Assembly: GCA_013204045.1 (NCBI GenBank)
Contig: JABMOQ010000116.1
Span: 1 to 37,138, forward strand
DNA from: Rhodospirillaceae bacterium
Lineage (GTDB): Bacteria > Pseudomonadota > Alphaproteobacteria > Rhodospirillales > JABHCV01
DNA: 37,138 nucleotides
Direction of reading: 5' to 3'
The translations under genes and the position numbers were made by a program. The notes under the pieces are model-generated. The model was not told the DNA's origin. It did not search any database and saw only the letters and a program-made list of their open reading frames with translations. This document shows positions 21,642 through 33,435 of the stretch, in pieces. Numbering within the stretch: the stretch's first letter is position 1; each line of letters opens with the position of its first letter.

Positions 21642-22316
21642 ATGCGCTTACTTCTCGTTGAAGATAACCAGCGACTGGCGGAGACAACCAAGAAAGGACT
21701 CGAAAAAGAGTCTTTCACCGTCGACTGGTTCGATACCCTATCCGATGCTGCCGCAGCGCTGGAAACCGTATCTTATGACGCAGTCGTCCTTGATTTGGGG
21801 TTACCGGATGGCGATGGACTGGAATTACTGTCTAATCTACGCAAAAAGGGATCTTCTACACCGGTTCTGATCCTGACGGCCCGTGACGGGATCGATGAAC
21901 GAGTCAGGGGGCTTGACGGCGGGGCCGACGATTATCTTTTAAAGCCTTTCGCCCTTGAAGAGTTAATAGCGCGCATTCGGGCCCTTCTGCGCAGGCCTGG
22001 GGGTGCTTTGGGCCTATTGCTGATCGCGGGCAATGTTTCCTTCGACACGACCGCCCGCGAGGTGTTGGTAGACGACAAACCGATTTCTGTATCGAGACGG
22101 GAAATGGGTGTGCTTGAACAATTGATGCGGCGAAATGGCCGGGTCGTCCCGAAGGACGTACTGGAAGACAAGTTGTATGGGTTTGGTGAAGAGGTAACCT
22201 CCAACTCGGTAGAGGTTCACATTTCCCGGCTTAGGAAACGTTTGTTGAAAGCCAAGGCATCAATCACCGTGCATACACTACGCGGGGTCGGGTATCTGCT
22301 TTCCGAAGACACTTAA
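21642..22316 (+). CDS. OmpR-family response regulator
   Basis: A DNA-binding two-component output protein of 224 residues. The receiver domain (1-115) has the acidic pocket Glu7-Asp8, phospho-acceptor Asp51 in VVLDLGLPDGDG, Thr79 and Lys101 in LLKPFALEEL. The winged-helix domain (about 125-222) contains LTxx-like SRREMGVLEQLMRRNGRVV and NSVEVHISRLRKRL, then TLRGVGYLL. The sequence resembles the QseB/TctD branch. It is 41 nt before the kinase gene, so the pair is probably one transcript. Regulon is unknown. Confidence 0.95.
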   Translation: MRLLLVEDNQRLAETTKKGLEKESFTVDWFDTLSDAAAALETVSYDAVVLDLGLPDGDGLELLSNLRKKGSSTPVLILTARDGIDERVRGLDGGADDYLLKPFALEELIARIRALLRRPGGALGLLLIAGNVSFDTTAREVLVDDKPISVSRREMGVLEQLMRRNGRVVPKDVLEDKLYGFGEEVTSNSVEVHISRLRKRLLKAKASITVHTLRGVGYLLSEDT

Positions 22317-22357: not shown

Positions 22358-24448
22358 ATGAAAGACGACAGTCTGGACCCCCGATCCACCATAACTGAAA
22401 CAGCCACATCTCCCTTAAATGGTATCAGTGGAACGGTGGTCGCCGCGGCGATTCTGGCAGCATTCATGTCTGTCTTTCTCATGTCTGCTGTTGATGAATA
22501 TTCGGCCAGCACACTTGCTCCCTACATACTGCTGTGGGCGTCCTTGACGTTTTCCTGGCATGCGTGGCGACGCTTGCGTGAGGCAACCGCCGAAGATCAT
22601 TCGTTGGCCCAATGGGCGGAGACAGACGGCGATAGTACTTATCACGGATCAAAAAACAGCAACCGGAAGGTTGGCGATTTGGGAGCTTGGGAATGGGATG
22701 TCACGAAGGACAGACTGACCTGGACTGATGAAGTCTATAAAATATTCGGGATTGATAAAAATTTGTTTGGTGGGAAATACGAGTCATTCCAAAAGCTTGT
22801 TCATCCCGATGACAGGCTTATCGTATCGGAAACCGTTGCCAGATCGTTACGGGAAAAAACCCCTTATACCATTGAGTATAAAGTCATTACCCCTGATGGG
22901 GATGTCCGTATCGTTTATGAACAGAACAAAATTTATCTGAAAGATGGCAAAGTCGTCAGAATGTCAGGAACAGTGAGTGATGTGACCGAACGCTTGAAAG
23001 CGGAAACAGAGCTGCGTTCGAGCTATGGCCTTTTGAAAACACTGATAGATACCATTCCTGTCCCCGTATTCCATAAGAAACTGAACGGTTTTTATCATGA
23101 TGGAAATACCGCATTTGAAAACTTCTTTGGGATAGACAGGACAAAACTCGACACCATGACGGTGTTTGATCTTGATCCGGAACCCATCGCCACCATTTCA
23201 GACAATGCAGACAAAATGCTTATCAGGAAAGGCCCTGGTGGTACCTATACATACGAGTCTCCGGTAATTGATTCTAACGGGGGCCATCATGACGTGATCT
23301 ATCATAAGGCCGTCCTTACCGACGATGCGGGGAATATGACCGGCCTGATAGGTACCATGCTTGACATTACCGAACGCAAACACATGGAAGCGGCGTTAAG
23401 GGAAAGCGAACAGCGTTTCCGCAACATAGCCGAATCCGCATCCGACTGGTTCTGGGAATCTGATGCAGAACACAAAATTTCTTACCTTTCAGACAGGTGC
23501 AGGGACGTGCTGGGGGCAGAAGTGGAATCAATTTTGGGAAAAACACGTTTTGAGCTGGCCGGCAAGGAACAAATAATCCTGGATAAGGAAAAGTGGGATA
23601 AGCATCGTGACGACCTGAACAACCACAGGCCATTTCGCGATTTTGAATACATTTATATATCCAGCGATGGCACCTGGGTAGATCTCAAGGCCAGTGGCGT
23701 CCCGGTGTTCGACGACTCAGGTGAATTTACTGGTTTTCGGGGAACGGGCACGGACATCACGGCCCACAAGCGGGTCGAACAGGCGCTTCGCGAAAGCGAG
23801 GAAAGACATCGTCATTTCGCCGCCGACGTGGCGCATGAACTTCGTACGCCGCTGGCTGTTCTGCGCACCCACCTGGACAACATTGAAGAAACCAAGGAAG
23901 TGCTGTCGTTACGCATGGATGTAGATGCAATGACGCGCATGATTGCCCAGCTGCTGGCGATGACCCGGCTGGAGACCTATACCCCGGACATGTTCATGGC
24001 GGTAGATTTATGTGAAGTGTGCCGTAATATCGCCGCCTTAATGGCGCCAATCGCTATCAAAGAGGGGCGTTCCATCGAGGTCACCGGATCGGAAATTCCT
24101 GTTATCATCAATGGGAATATGGAGTCTCTTGAACAGGCCGTACGCAACCTTGCCGAAAATGCCATCCGGTATTCGGCTAGGGGTACCGTTATTACTTTTC
24201 ATATCATGAACACCAGTGAGCCAACAATCAGTGTCATCGACAGAGGCAGGGGAATTGATCCAGACCAGAGAGAGGTAATTTTTGAGCGTTTCCTGCGCGC
24301 CGATCGCCGCGGTGGTGGTGCCGGGTTAGGACTTTCCATCGTCAAGCGGACGGTCGAGAACCATCATGCAGAAATCGAAATTATTGATACTCAAGGCGGC
24401 GGCGCCACCTTTATCATGCGCTTTCCTGTTGTTGAGAACAATTCTTAG
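22358..24448 (+). CDS. PAS-domain sensor histidine kinase
   Basis: Membrane-bound kinase of 696 residues, likely partner of the upstream regulator. Two N-terminal membrane segments (about 27-43 and 55-70) are joined by a very short outside loop, so sensing is probably cytoplasmic or within the membrane. Three PAS domains follow (about 105-215, 222-340, 345-470), each ending in D(V/I)T-type caps. The H-box HELRTP has His493. The N-box contains Asn601 and the ATP lid has DRGRGID and GGGAGLGLSIV. The signal is unknown; no haem or flavin residue pattern could be assigned by eye. Confidence 0.93.
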   Translation: MKDDSLDPRSTITETATSPLNGISGTVVAAAILAAFMSVFLMSAVDEYSASTLAPYILLWASLTFSWHAWRRLREATAEDHSLAQWAETDGDSTYHGSKNSNRKVGDLGAWEWDVTKDRLTWTDEVYKIFGIDKNLFGGKYESFQKLVHPDDRLIVSETVARSLREKTPYTIEYKVITPDGDVRIVYEQNKIYLKDGKVVRMSGTVSDVTERLKAETELRSSYGLLKTLIDTIPVPVFHKKLNGFYHDGNTAFENFFGIDRTKLDTMTVFDLDPEPIATISDNADKMLIRKGPGGTYTYESPVIDSNGGHHDVIYHKAVLTDDAGNMTGLIGTMLDITERKHMEAALRESEQRFRNIAESASDWFWESDAEHKISYLSDRCRDVLGAEVESILGKTRFELAGKEQIILDKEKWDKHRDDLNNHRPFRDFEYIYISSDGTWVDLKASGVPVFDDSGEFTGFRGTGTDITAHKRVEQALRESEERHRHFAADVAHELRTPLAVLRTHLDNIEETKEVLSLRMDVDAMTRMIAQLLAMTRLETYTPDMFMAVDLCEVCRNIAALMAPIAIKEGRSIEVTGSEIPVIINGNMESLEQAVRNLAENAIRYSARGTVITFHIMNTSEPTISVIDRGRGIDPDQREVIFERFLRADRRGGGAGLGLSIVKRTVENHHAEIEIIDTQGGGATFIMRFPVVENNS

Positions 24449-24780: not shown

Positions 24781-25200
24781 ATGAAGAACTGCCGAATCAT
24801 CATAATTGCTGCCATGGGATTAGCAATTATAGCGGCATCAAGTACTCAATCTTATGCAATGGGAGGTTGTGCTGCGTTCCCAGTTTCCGAGGGTTGGAGT
24901 AATATCAGCCATGAAAAAATTGTTTCCTATGTTTCTGCTAAACATGGGAATGACTGGGCTCCCTACCTGGTGAAGTGGAACAAGCAGCTCCATACAATGA
25001 AGTCAGTCTATGCCCGAGACGGCGTCGCCGTGTTCAAGAAAAAGGCTCTGACCCTGAAGGGTGAAGCGCTTCAACGCTACATTGAGGACATTGCAGCCAG
25101 GATCGAGGTCACCGAGTGCCTGGCCCGTTACGACGCGGAAACCAGGGAAGCCCGTGCGTTAAACGATCTGGATACGGCGGCCGGTGGCAACGCACAATAA
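24781..25200 (+). CDS. Small exported two-cysteine protein, paralogue 1 of 3
   Basis: Not recognised as a named family. A signal peptide (1-26, cleavage after SYA) precedes a mature part of about 113 residues. It begins GGCAAFP and ends its conserved core at TECLA. Cys30 and Cys113 are 83 residues apart and would form a disulfide in the periplasm. Conserved with its two neighbours are W..I.HEKI.SYV, KH..DW.PY, KW.KQL, MK, FK, L.GE.L..YI and R.EVT.CL. No lipobox, membrane segment beyond the signal, or catalytic motif is seen. AGGGAAAG gives a good ribosome site. This copy has an extra tail of about 25 residues. Confidence 0.85.
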   Translation: MKNCRIIIIAAMGLAIIAASSTQSYAMGGCAAFPVSEGWSNISHEKIVSYVSAKHGNDWAPYLVKWNKQLHTMKSVYARDGVAVFKKKALTLKGEALQRYIEDIAARIEVTECLARYDAETREARALNDLDTAAGGNAQ

Positions 25201-25221
25201 TCAGCATCTCCGAGGCCTTTC

Positions 25222-25257
25222 CGGGCGGCGTTAATCAAACGGGCGGCGTTAATCAAA
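25222..25257 (+). repeat. 18-bp perfect tandem repeat, two copies
   Basis: The unit CGGGCGGCGTTAATCAAA occurs at 25222-25239 and again, identical, at 25240-25257. It begins 21 bp after the stop of paralogue 1. It could be a duplicated protein-binding site or a recent slippage event. Confidence 0.9.
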
Positions 25258-25305
25258 TATTTTCCTCATACAGGGTATTTTGCGAACACGTTTTTTTGCC
25301 GTTCG

Positions 25306-25321
25306 TGTGATCCAGATCACA
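25306..25321. promoter_or_regulatory. CRP-type operator palindrome
   Basis: TGTGATCCAGATCACA fits the CRP consensus TGTGA-N6-TCACA at every fixed position and is symmetric over 7 bp on each side. It lies about 190 bp before the paralogue 2 start and just upstream of a possible -35 box. The regulator is inferred to be a Crp/Fnr-superfamily protein; none is encoded in this window. Confidence 0.7.
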
Positions 25322-25502
25322 TACATTTGCATAAAATTTTATTAAATTTGTACATTATCATGCAACGCGACGCTCAGACGATTTGTTGATATGTCAGGTG
25401 GGTGTCAGGCTTAAAACGTAGTTTGGTGCGATTGAAAGTCGGGGATGATCGAGAGATGAGGGTTTTGAGCAATATGAGTAGAGTGATAAAGGATCAGGAC
25501 TC

Positions 25503-25895
25503 ATGAAGATCATCGGTAAAACGACCTTGTCTTTTGCGGCGCTTATGGTGACCCTTTTTTCTGTCTCCCCGTCATATGCGGCAGGCGGATGCGCGGCTTT
25601 CCCGGATTCAAAATGGTGGGGAAATACCGACCACAAAAAAGTCATTTCCTATGTTTCCCGTAAGCATAATGGTGATTGGTCCCCGTATATAGAAAAATGG
25701 GGCGCCCAGTTAAATACCATGAAGGAAATTTTTGCCAAAGGTGGCAGCGCCGTTTTCAAGTCGAGGGAGGTCACCCTTTCTGGAGATATGTTGCAACAAT
25801 ATATCGACGATCTTGTTGTGCGTGTCGACGTGACAAAATGCCTTTCCCGCCATGCGACGGAAGAGGCGTTAAAGGAAACCAAGCCGGATTCCTAA
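25503..25895 (+). CDS. Small exported two-cysteine protein, paralogue 2 of 3
   Basis: A 130-residue protein with a signal peptide of 26 residues (cleavage after SYA, then AGGCAAFP). Cys30 and Cys113 keep the 83-residue spacing of the other copies. Core motifs are HKKVISYVSRKHNGDW, PYIEKW, GGSAVFKS, LSGDMLQQYI and VTKCLS. By eye roughly half of the core positions are identical to paralogue 3. AAAGGAT precedes the ATG. Unlike copy 1 the C-terminus is only a short charged tail. A CRP-type palindrome upstream suggests regulated expression. Biochemical function is unknown. Confidence 0.88.
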   Translation: MKIIGKTTLSFAALMVTLFSVSPSYAAGGCAAFPDSKWWGNTDHKKVISYVSRKHNGDWSPYIEKWGAQLNTMKEIFAKGGSAVFKSREVTLSGDMLQQYIDDLVVRVDVTKCLSRHATEEALKETKPDS

Positions 25896-25952
25896 ACGAC
25901 GGTTCACCAACAAATTCACCTGAACAGATAGCAGCAAGGCGATAAAAAAAGA

Positions 25953-26318
25953 ATGCGCGATATCCTGATTATCAATTTTCGCTCATGGCTGACTGCCCTT
26001 GTTCTGCTCATTATTGCTGCTTTACCCGCCGCAGCCGAAACGGGCAACTGCGAAAATTTCCCTCAGAGTGCCCACTGGAACAAGTTGACGCATGAGAGCA
26101 TCACATCATATGTGCAACGCAAGCATGATGGTGACTGGGTTCCTTATATCGCCAAGTGGGAAAAACAACTTCAATCCATGAAGGATATTCATAAACGCGG
26201 CGGCAGTGCCATTTTCAAATCTAAAGGCGTCAGCCTGAGTGGTGAAGAACTGCTGGGGTATATCGCCGAGCTTGAAAAGCGCGTCGCCATTACCCGGTGC
26301 CTGTCCGAACAGCAATAA
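25953..26318 (+). CDS. Small exported two-cysteine protein, paralogue 3 of 3
   Basis: A 121-residue protein with a longer N-terminal signal (about 1-29, cleavage near AAAE). The mature core ETGNCENFP...TRCLSEQQ stops directly after the second cysteine. Cys33 and Cys116 are again 83 residues apart. It keeps HESITSYVQRKHDGDW, PYIAKW, GGSAIFKS and LSGEELLGYI. It lies 57 nt after paralogue 2 with AAGG upstream and no obvious promoter, so the two are probably co-transcribed. It is the minimal version of the domain. Function is unknown. Confidence 0.88.
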   Translation: MRDILIINFRSWLTALVLLIIAALPAAAETGNCENFPQSAHWNKLTHESITSYVQRKHDGDWVPYIAKWEKQLQSMKDIHKRGGSAIFKSKGVSLSGEELLGYIAELEKRVAITRCLSEQQ

Positions 26319-26373: not shown

Positions 26374-27090
26374 ATGTCCCTTCGCCTTCGGTCAGATGGA
26401 GTGTTCCAATTGGATGACACGCTTTCGAAATTGCGCCTTGCCGTTTTTGACTGCGACGGCACCTTGGTTGATTCACAGGCCTCGATTGTATCGTCCATGC
26501 AGGCGGCTTGTGCTGCCCATAATATCCCAGAGCCGGAGCCGGAAGCCATCCGCCGGATGGTTGGCCTGCCGCTGGAAGTCGCCATCGCCAGTCTTTTTCC
26601 AGAACTGGACAAAAACAAGGTATGGCAGGTCCGCGAAGGTTACCGAGAGGCCTTTACGGTACTCCGCCAAAGGGGAGACGTTCACGAGCCACTGTTTCAA
26701 GGTGGACTTGATGCCCTAAGGGTTCTGGAAGATACCGGCTGGATACTTGGTGTCGCCACGGGAAAATCCTATAAAGGGCTGATATCGACACTGGATACCC
26801 ACCGCCTGACAATACGCTTCCAGACGTTACAGACGGCCGATTTGGCCCAAGGCAAACCTCACCCGGAGATGCTTTTAAATGCCATGGCCGAAACAGGCGT
26901 GGATGCTGCCTCGACGGTGATGATTGGTGATACGACCTACGACATGGAAATGGCCATTAATGCCGGCACCATGGCACTTGGTGTTGCATGGGGCTATCAT
27001 GAGTCCCAGGAATTGATGGATGCTGGTGCCCATATTGTTATAGACGACTTCAGCCAGTTACCGGAAGCCGTAGAACGTTTATCAGAATGA
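26374..27090 (+). CDS. HAD-family phosphatase, phosphoglycolate phosphatase-like
   Basis: A haloacid dehalogenase hydrolase of 238 residues. Motif I is FDCDGTLVDS with nucleophile Asp26 and acid Asp28. Motif II is VATGKS, motif III the lysine in GKPHPEM, and motif IV GDTTYDMEMA. A helical cap (about 37-105) matches the Gph subfamily. Substrate is not certain; phosphoglycolate or another small sugar phosphate is likely. It is followed 19 nt later by the AsmA gene. An N-terminal extension of about 20 residues precedes the core, so a later start is possible. Confidence 0.88.
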   Translation: MSLRLRSDGVFQLDDTLSKLRLAVFDCDGTLVDSQASIVSSMQAACAAHNIPEPEPEAIRRMVGLPLEVAIASLFPELDKNKVWQVREGYREAFTVLRQRGDVHEPLFQGGLDALRVLEDTGWILGVATGKSYKGLISTLDTHRLTIRFQTLQTADLAQGKPHPEMLLNAMAETGVDAASTVMIGDTTYDMEMAINAGTMALGVAWGYHESQELMDAGAHIVIDDFSQLPEAVERLSE

Positions 27091-29950: not shown

Positions 29951-31483
29951 ATGCACGACATCATTCGTCAGCTAGAAGAAAAAAGGCAGAAAGCGCACCT
30001 TGGCGGCGGCAAGCACCGTATCGAGAAGCAGCATGAAAAAGGCAAGCTGACGGCACGCGAGCGCCTCGACCTTCTGCTCGACCCTGAATCCTTCGAGGAA
30101 TGGGATATGTTCGTCGAACACCGCTGCACCGACTTCGGCATGGACAAACAGTCGATCCCGGGTGATGGCGTGGTAACCGGACATGGCACCATTAACGGCC
30201 GTCTGGTTTTTGTCTTCAGTCAGGATTTTACCGTGTTCGGCGGCTCGTTATCTGAATCACACGCCGGCAAAATTGCCAAGATCATGGATAAGGCGATGCA
30301 GGTCGGCGCCCCGGTCATCGGTTTGAATGATTCCGGTGGGGCGCGCATCCAGGAAGGGGTTTCTTCCCTGGCCGGTTATGCCGAGGTCTTTCAACGCAAT
30401 GTGCTGGCCAGCGGCGTTATCCCGCAGATTTCAATGATTATGGGTCCGTGCGCCGGTGGTGCCGTCTATTCGCCAGCCATTACCGACTTTATTTTTATGG
30501 TCAAAAACAAGTCTTACATGTTTGTTACCGGCCCCGATGTGGTCAAGACGGTCACCCATGAAGAAGTCAGCCACGAAGAACTGGGTGGCGCACTAACCCA
30601 CACACAGAAATCGGGTGTCGCCGACAAGGCATTTGACAATGATGCCGAAGCATTGCTGATGCTTAGGCGGTTTTTTGATTTTCTTCCTTCCAGCAACCGC
30701 GAAGCCCCCCCTGTCCGGCCGACACCGGACAGTCCTGACAGGGTAGAGCTGTCCCTCGATACCCTTGTCCCGGACAACACCAACAAACCCTATGACATAA
30801 TAGAGCTGATTGAAAAAATCGTTGATGAGGGTGATTTTTTTGAACTGCAACCGGAATATGCCGCAAATATCGTTATCGGCTTCGGGCGCATGGAAGGCTC
30901 GACCGTTGGAATCGTCGCCAACCAGCCGATGGTTCTGGCCGGCTGTCTGGATATTGATTCATCGAAGAAAGCGGCACGCTTCGTTCGGTTCTGCGACTGT
31001 TTCAATATTCCGATTATTACCTTTGTGGATGTGCCCGGGTTCCTGCCCGGCACAACCCAGGAGCATGGCGGCATTATCAAGCACGGGGCAAAGCTGCTCT
31101 ATGCCTTTGCCGAGGCGACGGTGCCCAAGGTGACCGTGATCACGCGAAAGGCTTATGGCGGCGCTTATGACGTGATGAGTTCAAAACATCTTCGTGGCGA
31201 TGTTAATTTGGCATGGCCAAGCGCCGAAATCGCGGTCATGGGGCCGAAAGGGGCGGTCGAGATTATTTTTCGTGATGACATCGGCAACCCCGGAAAAATT
31301 GCCGAACGGACAGAGGAATATCGTCAGCGGTTTGCCAATCCCTTCATCGTAGGACATCGGGGTTTTATCGACGATGTCATCATGCCCCATAACACTCGCC
31401 TACGATTGTGTCGCTCGCTCAGGATGCTAAAGGGCAAGAAACTGGAAAATCCGTGGAAGAAACACGGCAATATTCCACTCTAG
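29951..31483 (+). CDS. pccB: Propionyl-CoA carboxylase beta subunit (carboxyltransferase)
   Basis: Transfers carboxyl from carboxybiotin to propionyl-CoA, making methylmalonyl-CoA. The 510-residue protein has both crotonase-like halves. The N-terminal half has [17 protein letters not shown] and the oxyanion [11 protein letters not shown]. The C-terminal half has [26 protein letters not shown] and [15 protein letters not shown]. Its partner pccA lies downstream beyond an antisense kinase gene. The TAG stop shares the CTAG with the stop of that convergent gene. The upstream gap is 101 nt without a clear promoter. Confidence 0.95.
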
Positions 31484-33435
31484 ATAGCGGGTTTCGGCAT
31501 TATCGAGGGCAGGACGACTGTGAATGTAGAGCCTTCGCCGGGGGTGCTATCGACGGAAATGTCTCCGCCCATCATTTCGCACATGCCACGGCTGATTGAA
31601 AGGCCAAGGCCGGTTCCGCCGAAACGCTTGGTGATGGATGAATCTCCCTGCATGAAGGCACGGAATAAGCCTTTTAACTGTTGTCCCGACAGCCCGATCC
31701 CGGTATCCGTTACCGTTAATATAATGTAATCACCTTTGCTTGTTTTACGGCGCTTAAGGGCAAGCGATATCCGGCCATCATTGGTGAATTTCCCGGCATT
31801 ACCCAGAAGATTGAAAAGAATTTGCCTTAGCGCCGTTATATCCGTGACCATGGTTCCGATGTCATCTGGGCAATCCAGTTCTAAAATATTGTTGTTTTTC
31901 TCAATTCCCGCTTTGATGGCGCTAACCGCATCGTTGACAAAATGCTTCAGATCGACGGTTTCCGGATGCATATCCATTTTCCCGGCTTCGATTTTTGATA
32001 GGTCCAGCACATTGCTGATTAAACCAAGTAAATGTTTGCCTGAATCGTGGATATGTCTGGTGTACTCTTCGTAAGTCTTGTTTTCTAACTTGCCCAGCAC
32101 GCCGGTCGCCATTGTTTCCGAAAAACCGATGATCGCATTCAGTGGGGTTCTGAGCTCGTGGCTCATGTTGGCCAGGAATTCTGATTTTGCCCTGTTGGCA
32201 CTTTCCGCTTTATCACGGGCTTGCAACAAGGCGTTTTCCGTGCGTTTGCGTTCCGTGTCATCCTGGATGACGCCGATGTAAAATACATCGCTATCAATAT
32301 GTATTTCACTGACTCCCAGCCACATGGGGAAACATGATCCGTCCTTGCGCTTGCCGATGACATCTCGGCCGGTACCCATAATATGGGGGGTGCCTTCCTT
32401 TTGGTATCTTTCCAGATAACCATCGTGTCGGGATTTATCCGGCTCGGGCATTAACATGGAAACGTTGTTACCGATGACTTCATTTTTATCAAAGCCGAAA
32501 ATTTCTTTGGCGGACGGATTGTAGCTTTGTACAATTCCCCTGCGATCGATGACAATCAACCCATCGACCATGTTGTCAAGTACGGTGCGAAGGAATGATT
32601 CAGAGGTGGCCTGTCCCTTTTCCGCAGATCTGAGGCCGATAATGTTTTCGCGGAAAATATGCAGGGCACGGGAAATTTCACCGACTTCATCGCCGCGCTT
32701 CAGGATAGGAATATCAACTTCTGTTTCTCCAGCGGCTATCTGACGCATCATGCCGGTCATCTTGGCCAGGGGTGCCCCGGCCAATCTATTCAGCAAGTAG
32801 GCAATAAACGCAGCAATTATTACGGAAACAAGGATTGCCAATCCGTAGATTCTATTCGCCGCGCGTGAAAGCTCGAAGAATTCCTGGGACAGGTCCAGCG
32901 CCACAGAATACGCGCCGATGACTTCACCATCTATGATGTCCATCAGTTCTTTGTGACAGCTATAACATTTTATGTTCGTCGCCGATCCCTGTCCAAGAAT
33001 GACCGGCCTGGTGTAGCGGTAGATATTGTCCGCGCTCATTGCTTCTGCGATACGTGCGGTTTCGATCGCCCTACGATCTACCTCGTCACGGGCACGTTCC
33101 TGATGAGCGTCTTTTTTTGCCTGAAAGGCCAGGGCCTTCGGTCCCTGTACCAGCCACAGGGACATGCGGTTCGAGTTCATGCCGACCCGTTCCATGGTGG
33201 CATCCAGAATTGCGATACTGACGTTTTTGTCACTTGTGCCTGTGCGGTTGAGCATCGCCTGCACATGCAGGGTTTCGACGATTTCAAGCGCTTCGACGGC
33301 ACCTTTTTGGGCGTTTGTCCGGAAGATACTGGATTGGGCCTCGACAAACAGAGCCGCACTGGCCAGCATGACGACGATCAACAAGCCGCTGACAAGCAGG
33401 GCAATCTTGCTTCCAAGCTTAAGTTGGCTGGTCAC
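31480..33435 (-). CDS. Membrane histidine kinase with haem-c periplasmic sensor
   Basis: A 651-residue kinase. It has TM1 (about 10-32), a periplasmic domain (33-195), TM2 (197-215), HAMP (215-270), one PAS (277-395), H-box SHELRTPLN with His426, N-box Asn546, DTGIGLS and [10 protein letters not shown]. The periplasmic part matches the Tll0287-like (DUF3365) fold: [29 protein letters not shown]. It contains CYSCH (157-161), a CxxCH c-type haem attachment site. Redox, O2 or NO sensing is inferred. Start is GTG 33435. No response regulator is adjacent. Confidence 0.92.

Follow-up and report, generated by a model that had tools for sequence, protein, structure and literature searches.

The three tandem genes between positions 24781 and 26318 of the window, a stretch of 37,138 nucleotides of a Rhodospirillaceae bacterium analysed here as a whole, encode exported proteins built on a two-cysteine domain of about 90 residues, for which we propose the name 2C. 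Judged by profile comparison, 2C is a domain of uncultured Rhodospirillales that Pfam and NCBIfam leave unnamed, and it is, by all predictions, a mobile periplasmic module. It occurs as small exported proteins, in front of c-type cytochrome domains, and at the end of proteins composed of a receiver, one transmembrane helix and 2C (REC-TM-2C). Because of the REC-TM-2C and cytochrome fusions, the family is more interesting than the tandem triplet itself, and it is these fusions, absent from the original prediction, that say most about the function of the domain.

The triplet consists of the following genes.

24781..25200, forward strand: copy 1 (P0001, 139 amino acids), a signal peptide, the two-cysteine domain and a C-terminal helix ending LDTAAGGNAQ
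25503..25895, forward strand: copy 2 (P0002, 130 amino acids), a signal peptide and the two-cysteine domain
25953..26318, forward strand: copy 3 (P0003, 121 amino acids), the minimal copy, a signal peptide and the two-cysteine domain

The original prediction described three adjacent genes on the same strand, each with a signal peptide and with two cysteines exactly 83 residues apart in an ungapped core, and this description was confirmed for all three window copies. The coordinates and the forward strand were verified, with intergenic distances of 302 bp between genes 1 and 2 and 57 bp between genes 2 and 3. Hydropathy places a hydrophobic export signal at the start of each protein, and the core cysteine pairs (C30/C113 in copies 1 and 2, C33/C116 in copy 3) align without gaps; the extra cysteine of P0001, C4, lies inside the signal peptide. 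Over the 84-residue core from cysteine to cysteine, 33 of the 84 positions are invariant and the pairwise identities are 45, 39 and 44 of 84. Even the weakest pair, with 39 identical residues, exceeds the highest value reached by 10,000 composition shuffles with fixed end cysteines, which was 18, and a search of the host genome with copy 2 returned the other two window copies at E 6.3e-35 and 1.1e-28. The triplet proteins look like soluble Sec substrates, because no lipobox precedes the first cysteine (a regular expression was negative in all three proteins, the preceding residues being AMGG, AAGG and ETGN). The domain is under purifying selection, with dN/dS of 0.11-0.40 in six of eight pairs and saturated dS in the remaining two; this range, together with conservation in other genomes, supports the triplet reading frames as coding. 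A promoter and terminator scan gave one promoter-like and no terminator-like site, where the shuffle means were higher (3.3 and 2.5), and a comparison by shared words revealed no common regulatory box, the sole word linking an upstream region of the window to another being 11 bases long.

The core could not at first be placed in a named family, and it is still without a name after a profile search and structure prediction, neither of which gave a significant match to a known domain. When the three full proteins and 52 domain sequences were compared with Pfam-A and NCBIfam, only weak, scattered matches were obtained, and those with a printed cut-off fell below it. The 52-copy profile gave three matches among PDB sequences at E 0.55-1.2, which we regard as noise, so that no profile match in any of these collections names the two-cysteine core. 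The AlphaFold2 model of copy 3 (P0003; 20 rows) is confident (mean pLDDT 93.4, pTM 0.82) and consists of a helix at 19-30, a helix at 34-53, a beta hairpin at 57-60/65-68 and a long helix at 69-92, with no significant fold match. Its best Foldseek match in the PDB has E 0.18, and the best VIA-align Z is 6.9 over 62 residues, which the tool rates as middling; values below 8 (below about 13 for helical bundles) may reflect a common arrangement only. The fold leads (mostly ribosomal protein and V-ATPase helices, HU and PadR) were taken as such common helical arrangements. Against a viral structure library, Foldseek returned nothing at E ≤0.001 (best 0.41). The predicted fold of 2C may nevertheless already be known. 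Among the papers listed on membrane and transmembrane response regulators, hemerythrin kinases and two-cysteine periplasmic tandem proteins, none was recognized as describing the 2C family, within a coverage outside which most subscription journals lie.

In an alignment of 52 domains, columns W39, Y42 and C93 are invariant, and C10, P14, W19, V31, G37, W46, L77, R87 and L94 are nearly so. The motifs originally listed as invariant hold in the three window copies, but many of them relax in this wider alignment. Exactly two cysteines are present in 117 of 125 domain matches, the other eight being cut or changed copies. Their spacing is 82 residues in 57 matches, 83 in 40, 84 in one, 85 in 13, 88 in four, and 93 and 94 in one each; the 83-residue spacing of the window copies thus extends to only 40 of the 117 two-cysteine matches. 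Cells with a DsbA/DsbB system usually oxidise the paired cysteines of exported proteins, and DsbB was found in this genome. With two conserved cysteines in an exported domain, a disulfide probably connects the N-terminal-side cysteine to that of the last helix. The loss of both cysteines in L178 was considered as proof of this disulfide and dropped; L178 also lacks the C-terminal domain of its sisters and a conserved tryptophan, and therefore looks decayed or badly sequenced.

2C is largely confined to one order. The genome containing the window has four copies, the triplet and one more on a different contig, and the domain is present in 17 of 60 genomes of relatives and in 68 of 317 genomes of the order, or 30 of 212 if those of high quality are counted. 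A sample of the class yielded three positive genomes out of 385, including this one, the other two belonging to one genus outside the order, and in a phylum sample of 398 this genome was the single positive. The original prediction had named many unannotated hits in alphaproteobacteria, often in tandem, as support for a new family; the matches are indeed alphaproteobacterial, unnamed and sometimes in tandem, but they are not many, as the 3/385 of the class sample illustrates. Among named genomes, 12 of 32 candidate stretches are relatives, located in nine MAGs, eight of which are titled Rhodospirillales or Rhodospirillaceae and one Caenispirillum bisanense (Rhodospirillales according to NCBI). 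For some, a habitat in low-oxygen marine water is suggested by isolate names, among them SI037, ETNP2 and Arabian11. No relatives were found in viral contigs, phages or plasmids, and PHROGs gave no match; with the locus also syntenic in relatives, a phage or mobile origin was dropped. The REC fusion matched at least 5000 plasmid records; among the matches listed none covered more than 80% of its length, and the five plasmid places listed all fall within residues 26-145, on the receiver side. PADLOC gave no match for the three window proteins and three weak matches for the REC fusion (best E 1.2e-4), two within residues 1-61 and one at 116-202.

The census of the order, summed over its table, comprises 174 matches. 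Architectures were read from the matches listed, a reading that left out genomes such as G084, G096, G097, G110, G111, G305 and G308, and 144 ORFs with 159 domain matches were labelled by coarse regular expressions. By these labels, 45 of the 144 ORFs have a single 2C without a long tail, a class that includes cut or decayed pieces, at least four ORFs with a long N-terminal part, and the RHH-like L170. Two 2C domains are present in 14 ORFs (12 of them without another label), the REC-TM-2C arrangement in 28, and 2C before c-type cytochrome domains in 14. A C-terminal beta domain follows 2C in 26 ORFs by regular expression and in 32 with the six recognized by eye under other labels (L074, L171, L175, L180, L208, L218). 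An RHH-like tail is found in 10 ORFs, or 11 with L170 by eye, and Sel1 repeats after 2C were seen by eye in four. Among examples chosen for Pfam comparison, the one cytochrome fusion scanned matched cytochrome c at E 1.4e-18 and Sel1 was matched at E 9.7e-9, while the AMIN match of L068 is sub-threshold (E 0.003, 18.1 bits against a cut-off of 20.5). In the architectures read, 2C lies on the exported side: most complete ORFs have a signal peptide or a hydrophobic stretch at the N-terminus ahead of it, and the REC fusions carry it C-terminal to the receiver and a hydrophobic helix.

The partner domains have features of their own. The beta domain (L148, L151, L201-L205, L217-L221 and others) carries two conserved cysteines, WP and W-containing motifs, and had no convincing match in Pfam or among PDB sequences. 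The RHH-like C-terminus occurs in the exported 2C proteins L163, L165, L170, L176, L177, L179, L206, L209, L212, L214 and L216; Pfam gave weak RHH_5 matches for five of the ten scanned (best E 9e-4), and a ribbon-helix-helix-like segment is unusual in the periplasm. The genus outside the order has two REC-TM-2C ORFs, two 2C-cytochrome ORFs (one of them cut) and one short 2C ORF, which suggests that both fusion architectures are old. In a tree of the domain (120 rows, 96 columns, 32 open forks, much of it unresolved), explaining the REC label takes at least four gains or losses on branches with good support; therefore, fusion or loss happened repeatedly. Single 2C genes of one family (f19; L130, L132, L137, L164, L056) lie near sequence clusters of flagellar export genes, which we take to be FliO/FliP-like.

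Copy 1 ends in LDTAAGGNAQ, and [F/L/M]xTAAG just behind the domain recurs in the 2C family. The triplet had been described as having divergent tails; the tail of copy 1 is not random, as its motif recurs, mostly directly after the domain. The pattern [FLMIVY]xTAAG occurs 27 times in the 28,688 residues of 111 family ORFs, against 10 occurrences in the remaining six-frame ORFs of the same loci (976,326 residues), a background that includes non-coding frames. The related xTA[AS]G is found at most 45 residues after the domain in 40 of the 144 ORFs, none of which is REC-TM-2C; its presence in a single cytochrome ORF looks like chance, and one REC fusion (L141) has the TAAG motif upstream of its domain. 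At the DNA level, a pattern for xTAAGGN matches once in the genome that holds the window, in copy 1, and nine times in four genomes, against two matches for a reversed control; five of the nine fall in family genes, one in a family remnant and three elsewhere. A decayed 2C remnant on contig C54 of genome G001 (L193) still has a TAAGGN tail at its end. In the AlphaFold model of copy 1, which is likewise confident, the last helix runs through the tail (69-112). We take the TAAG tail as a putative short recognition or processing motif.

The REC-TM-2C proteins resemble two-component response regulators (PF00072) in having a receiver with a mostly intact phosphorylation site. Unlike PF00072 regulators that act on DNA or an enzyme in the cytoplasm, they would have their far end across the inner membrane, and that end has no Pfam match. 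In 28 of 28 REC fusions, hydropathy indicates that a membrane helix separates the receiver from 2C, and from it we infer a topology with 2C as the periplasmic end. In the two REC fusions scanned, Response_reg was matched at E 2.4e-30 (L005) and 7.8e-28 (L136). The phosphorylatable aspartate is present in 26 of 28 fusions (asparagine in L067; L181 is cut), the receiver lysine in 26 of 28 by regular expression and in L213 also by eye (glutamate in L060). Of the first 20 fusions, 17 have the acidic pair; L054, the start of which is absent, L060 and L181 lack it. The predicted receiver sites are thus mostly intact. On contig C2 of the genome that contains the window, the fusion gene is adjacent to a kinase gene.

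L005:4364-5278, reverse strand: REC-TM-2C gene, receiver, transmembrane helix and 2C
L005:2545-4320, reverse strand: hemerythrin-PAS-HisKA-HATPase kinase by Pfam, the next gene after the REC-TM-2C gene on the same strand

This pair also occurs in two further genera, in G005 (L062) and G002 (L069); L071, the fourth member of the clade, is at a contig end and was left out of the neighbour comparison. In the three hemerythrin kinases the sole segment above the hydropathy threshold is weak and lies deep in the L005 kinase core; with no convincing membrane segment, these hemerythrin-PAS kinases are probably cytosolic. Their histidine-rich motifs, as we read them, resemble the ligands of bacteriohemerythrin, one of the four pieces being missing in L069 by regular expression. 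Kinase neighbours were identified by an iterated search seeded with the window kinase, which may miss some. This search placed a kinase in 10 of the 104 stretches; three of 20 REC fusions have one as direct neighbour, and L060 has one two ORFs away. A second receiver gene adjoins L070, L155 and L158, and no two-component gene was found among the neighbours of the remaining REC fusions.

The triplet itself is flanked by two-component genes of a more conventional kind and by a hydrolase gene.

21642..22316, forward strand: OmpR-type response regulator (Response_reg and Trans_reg_C by Pfam)
22358..24448, forward strand: PAS histidine kinase (PAS, HisKA and HATPase_c by Pfam) with a short N-terminal membrane part by hydropathy
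26374..27090, forward strand: HAD-family hydrolase (Pfam), directly downstream of the triplet

The OmpR regulator stands in the same order upstream of a two-cysteine gene in two other genomes, and a HAD relative is beside a two-cysteine gene in four (L036, L041, L042, L047). Downstream of the triplet, Pfam identifies the HAD hydrolase, AsmA, ATP12 and a carboxyl transferase. The order pseudouridine synthase, response regulator, histidine kinase, 2C, HAD, ATP12 and carboxyl transferase is common to the window, L041 and L042, with AsmA additional in the window; the 2C protein of the L041/L042 locus is a tandem. The G002 locus (L036) has two 2C genes, no kinase and a remnant of the regulator.

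L036:7090-7353, reverse strand: OmpR regulator remnant of G002, an 87-residue open frame that has the first regulator residues and then departs

As G002 keeps two 2C genes without a kinase, the triplet genes do not strictly need the OmpR/kinase pair. In the domain tree, copy 1 is the sister of copy 2 (100/94), copy 3 groups with a gene of G002, another genus, at the same locus (100/74, below the star threshold), and the three window copies form a clade with the two G002 genes (98/94). These groupings indicate that copy number turns over at this locus. Further along the window, a HAMP-PAS histidine kinase (31480-33435, reverse strand) carries CYSCH, a possible c-type heme site, in its N-terminal sensor part; a kinase flanking the L036 locus carries CLTCH, and L041 has a kinase of similar domains in the same place.

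How these proteins act can be proposed with limited confidence. We tentatively favour, at clearly less than an even chance, a reading in which 2C is a disulfide-stapled periplasmic docking domain, used in soluble form in the triplet proteins and, in transmembrane response regulators, as the part that reaches into the periplasm; it is the promiscuous fusion of the domain that points to docking. 2C would fold as two helices followed by a beta hairpin and a long final helix, with the disulfide closing the structure, and would be a protein-binding module of the periplasm. It would attach c-type cytochromes, Sel1-repeat proteins and others to the same network, in which the triplet, as soluble periplasmic 2C proteins putatively controlled by the adjacent OmpR/PAS-kinase pair, would supply partners or competitors. 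Receivers are phosphorylated by kinases in the cytoplasm. In REC-TM-2C the receiver would be cytoplasmic, one helix would pass through the inner membrane and 2C would be periplasmic; therefore, the state of the kinase inside could change the partners bound outside. A more specific version, possible but on balance doubtful, is inside-out phosphosignalling, in which a kinase, in this genome the putatively oxygen-sensing hemerythrin kinase, phosphorylates the receiver in the cytoplasm and the periplasmic 2C recruits or releases soluble 2C proteins and 2C-cytochromes, tuning respiration or the envelope without transcription. The direction of signalling is itself an inference; just as well, 2C might be a sensor of something outside that acts back on the receiver. 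Against the proposal count a changed active-site residue in two REC fusions (L060 and L067), the low number of REC fusions for which a kinase was found as direct neighbour, and the G002 locus, which keeps its 2C genes without a kinase. Moreover, G049, a 99% complete genome in one contig, has a single 2C match that is not a REC fusion, and therefore a 2C-2C partnership cannot be universal.

Three other explanations account for parts of the same evidence. CpxP and ExoR are periplasmic regulators, and the triplet proteins may, like them and like DbfQ, bind the sensor part of the upstream kinase and set its activity. In its favour, the genes that follow immediately on an OmpR regulator and a kinase in the window, and likewise in L041 and L042, encode small exported proteins. 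It has a close parallel in DbfQ-DbfRS of Vibrio cholerae, where DbfQ, a small periplasmic protein whose gene adjoins those of a response regulator and a kinase, is reported to bind the kinase sensory domain (PMC12714742). Unlike that kinase, the window kinase and its two orthologues have no periplasmic sensor domain visible by hydropathy: the window kinase has one strong segment, and those of L041 and L042 have two that are at most seven residues apart, leaving a loop of a few residues. A direct DbfQ-like mechanism is weakened by this, as a periplasmic part of the kinase that the triplet proteins could contact is not seen. 2C also occurs in many other contexts, G002 retains two copies without a kinase at the locus, and a kinase was found in just 10 of the 104 stretches by a search that may miss some. 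We regard kinase modulation as improbable and as the least likely of the three.

A redox-linked role, with the disulfide or a contact to periplasmic cytochromes reporting the redox or oxygen state of the respiratory chain, seems improbable, and it is the strongest of these competitors. It could explain the 14 fusions to c-type cytochrome domains, the hemerythrin domain of the kinase beside REC-TM-2C, and the CYSCH and CLTCH motifs of the flanking kinases in the window and L036. However, cysteines that are nearly invariant at both ends of the domain are what a structural staple would show, the 52-domain alignment contains no other invariant set of metal or heme ligands, and the cytochrome fusions are a minority. 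Slightly harder to credit is binding of an envelope polymer such as peptidoglycan, by which 2C would anchor its carriers in the manner of SPOR, AMIN or LysM. The many unrelated carriers suggest anchoring, and the partner modules include Sel1 repeats and the sub-threshold AMIN match of L068, but cytochromes and receiver proteins have no obvious need for attachment to the wall, and a domain that binds a universal polymer would hardly be expected to stay almost within one order.

On the preferred docking reading, 2C would be a domain new to an otherwise known type of signalling system. Membrane-fixed response regulators have been described in methanogens, where those with the MetOD3 output domain are archaeal and are reported to have very few members; REC-TM-2C is likened to them by this description only, as a response regulator fixed to the membrane (PMC5847659). 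In the 2C-cytochrome fusions, the C-terminal part is a Cytochrom_C domain (PF00034) in the one example scanned; unlike PF00034 cytochromes, they have an N-terminal 2C that no Pfam cytochrome model covers above its cut-off. If REC-TM-2C acts in the way proposed, one branch of two-component signalling would send its output outward across the membrane, and the presence of 2C would mark candidate targets by sequence alone. Even otherwise, the domain provides a handle on 2C-tagged cytochromes and sensors in uncultured Rhodospirillales.
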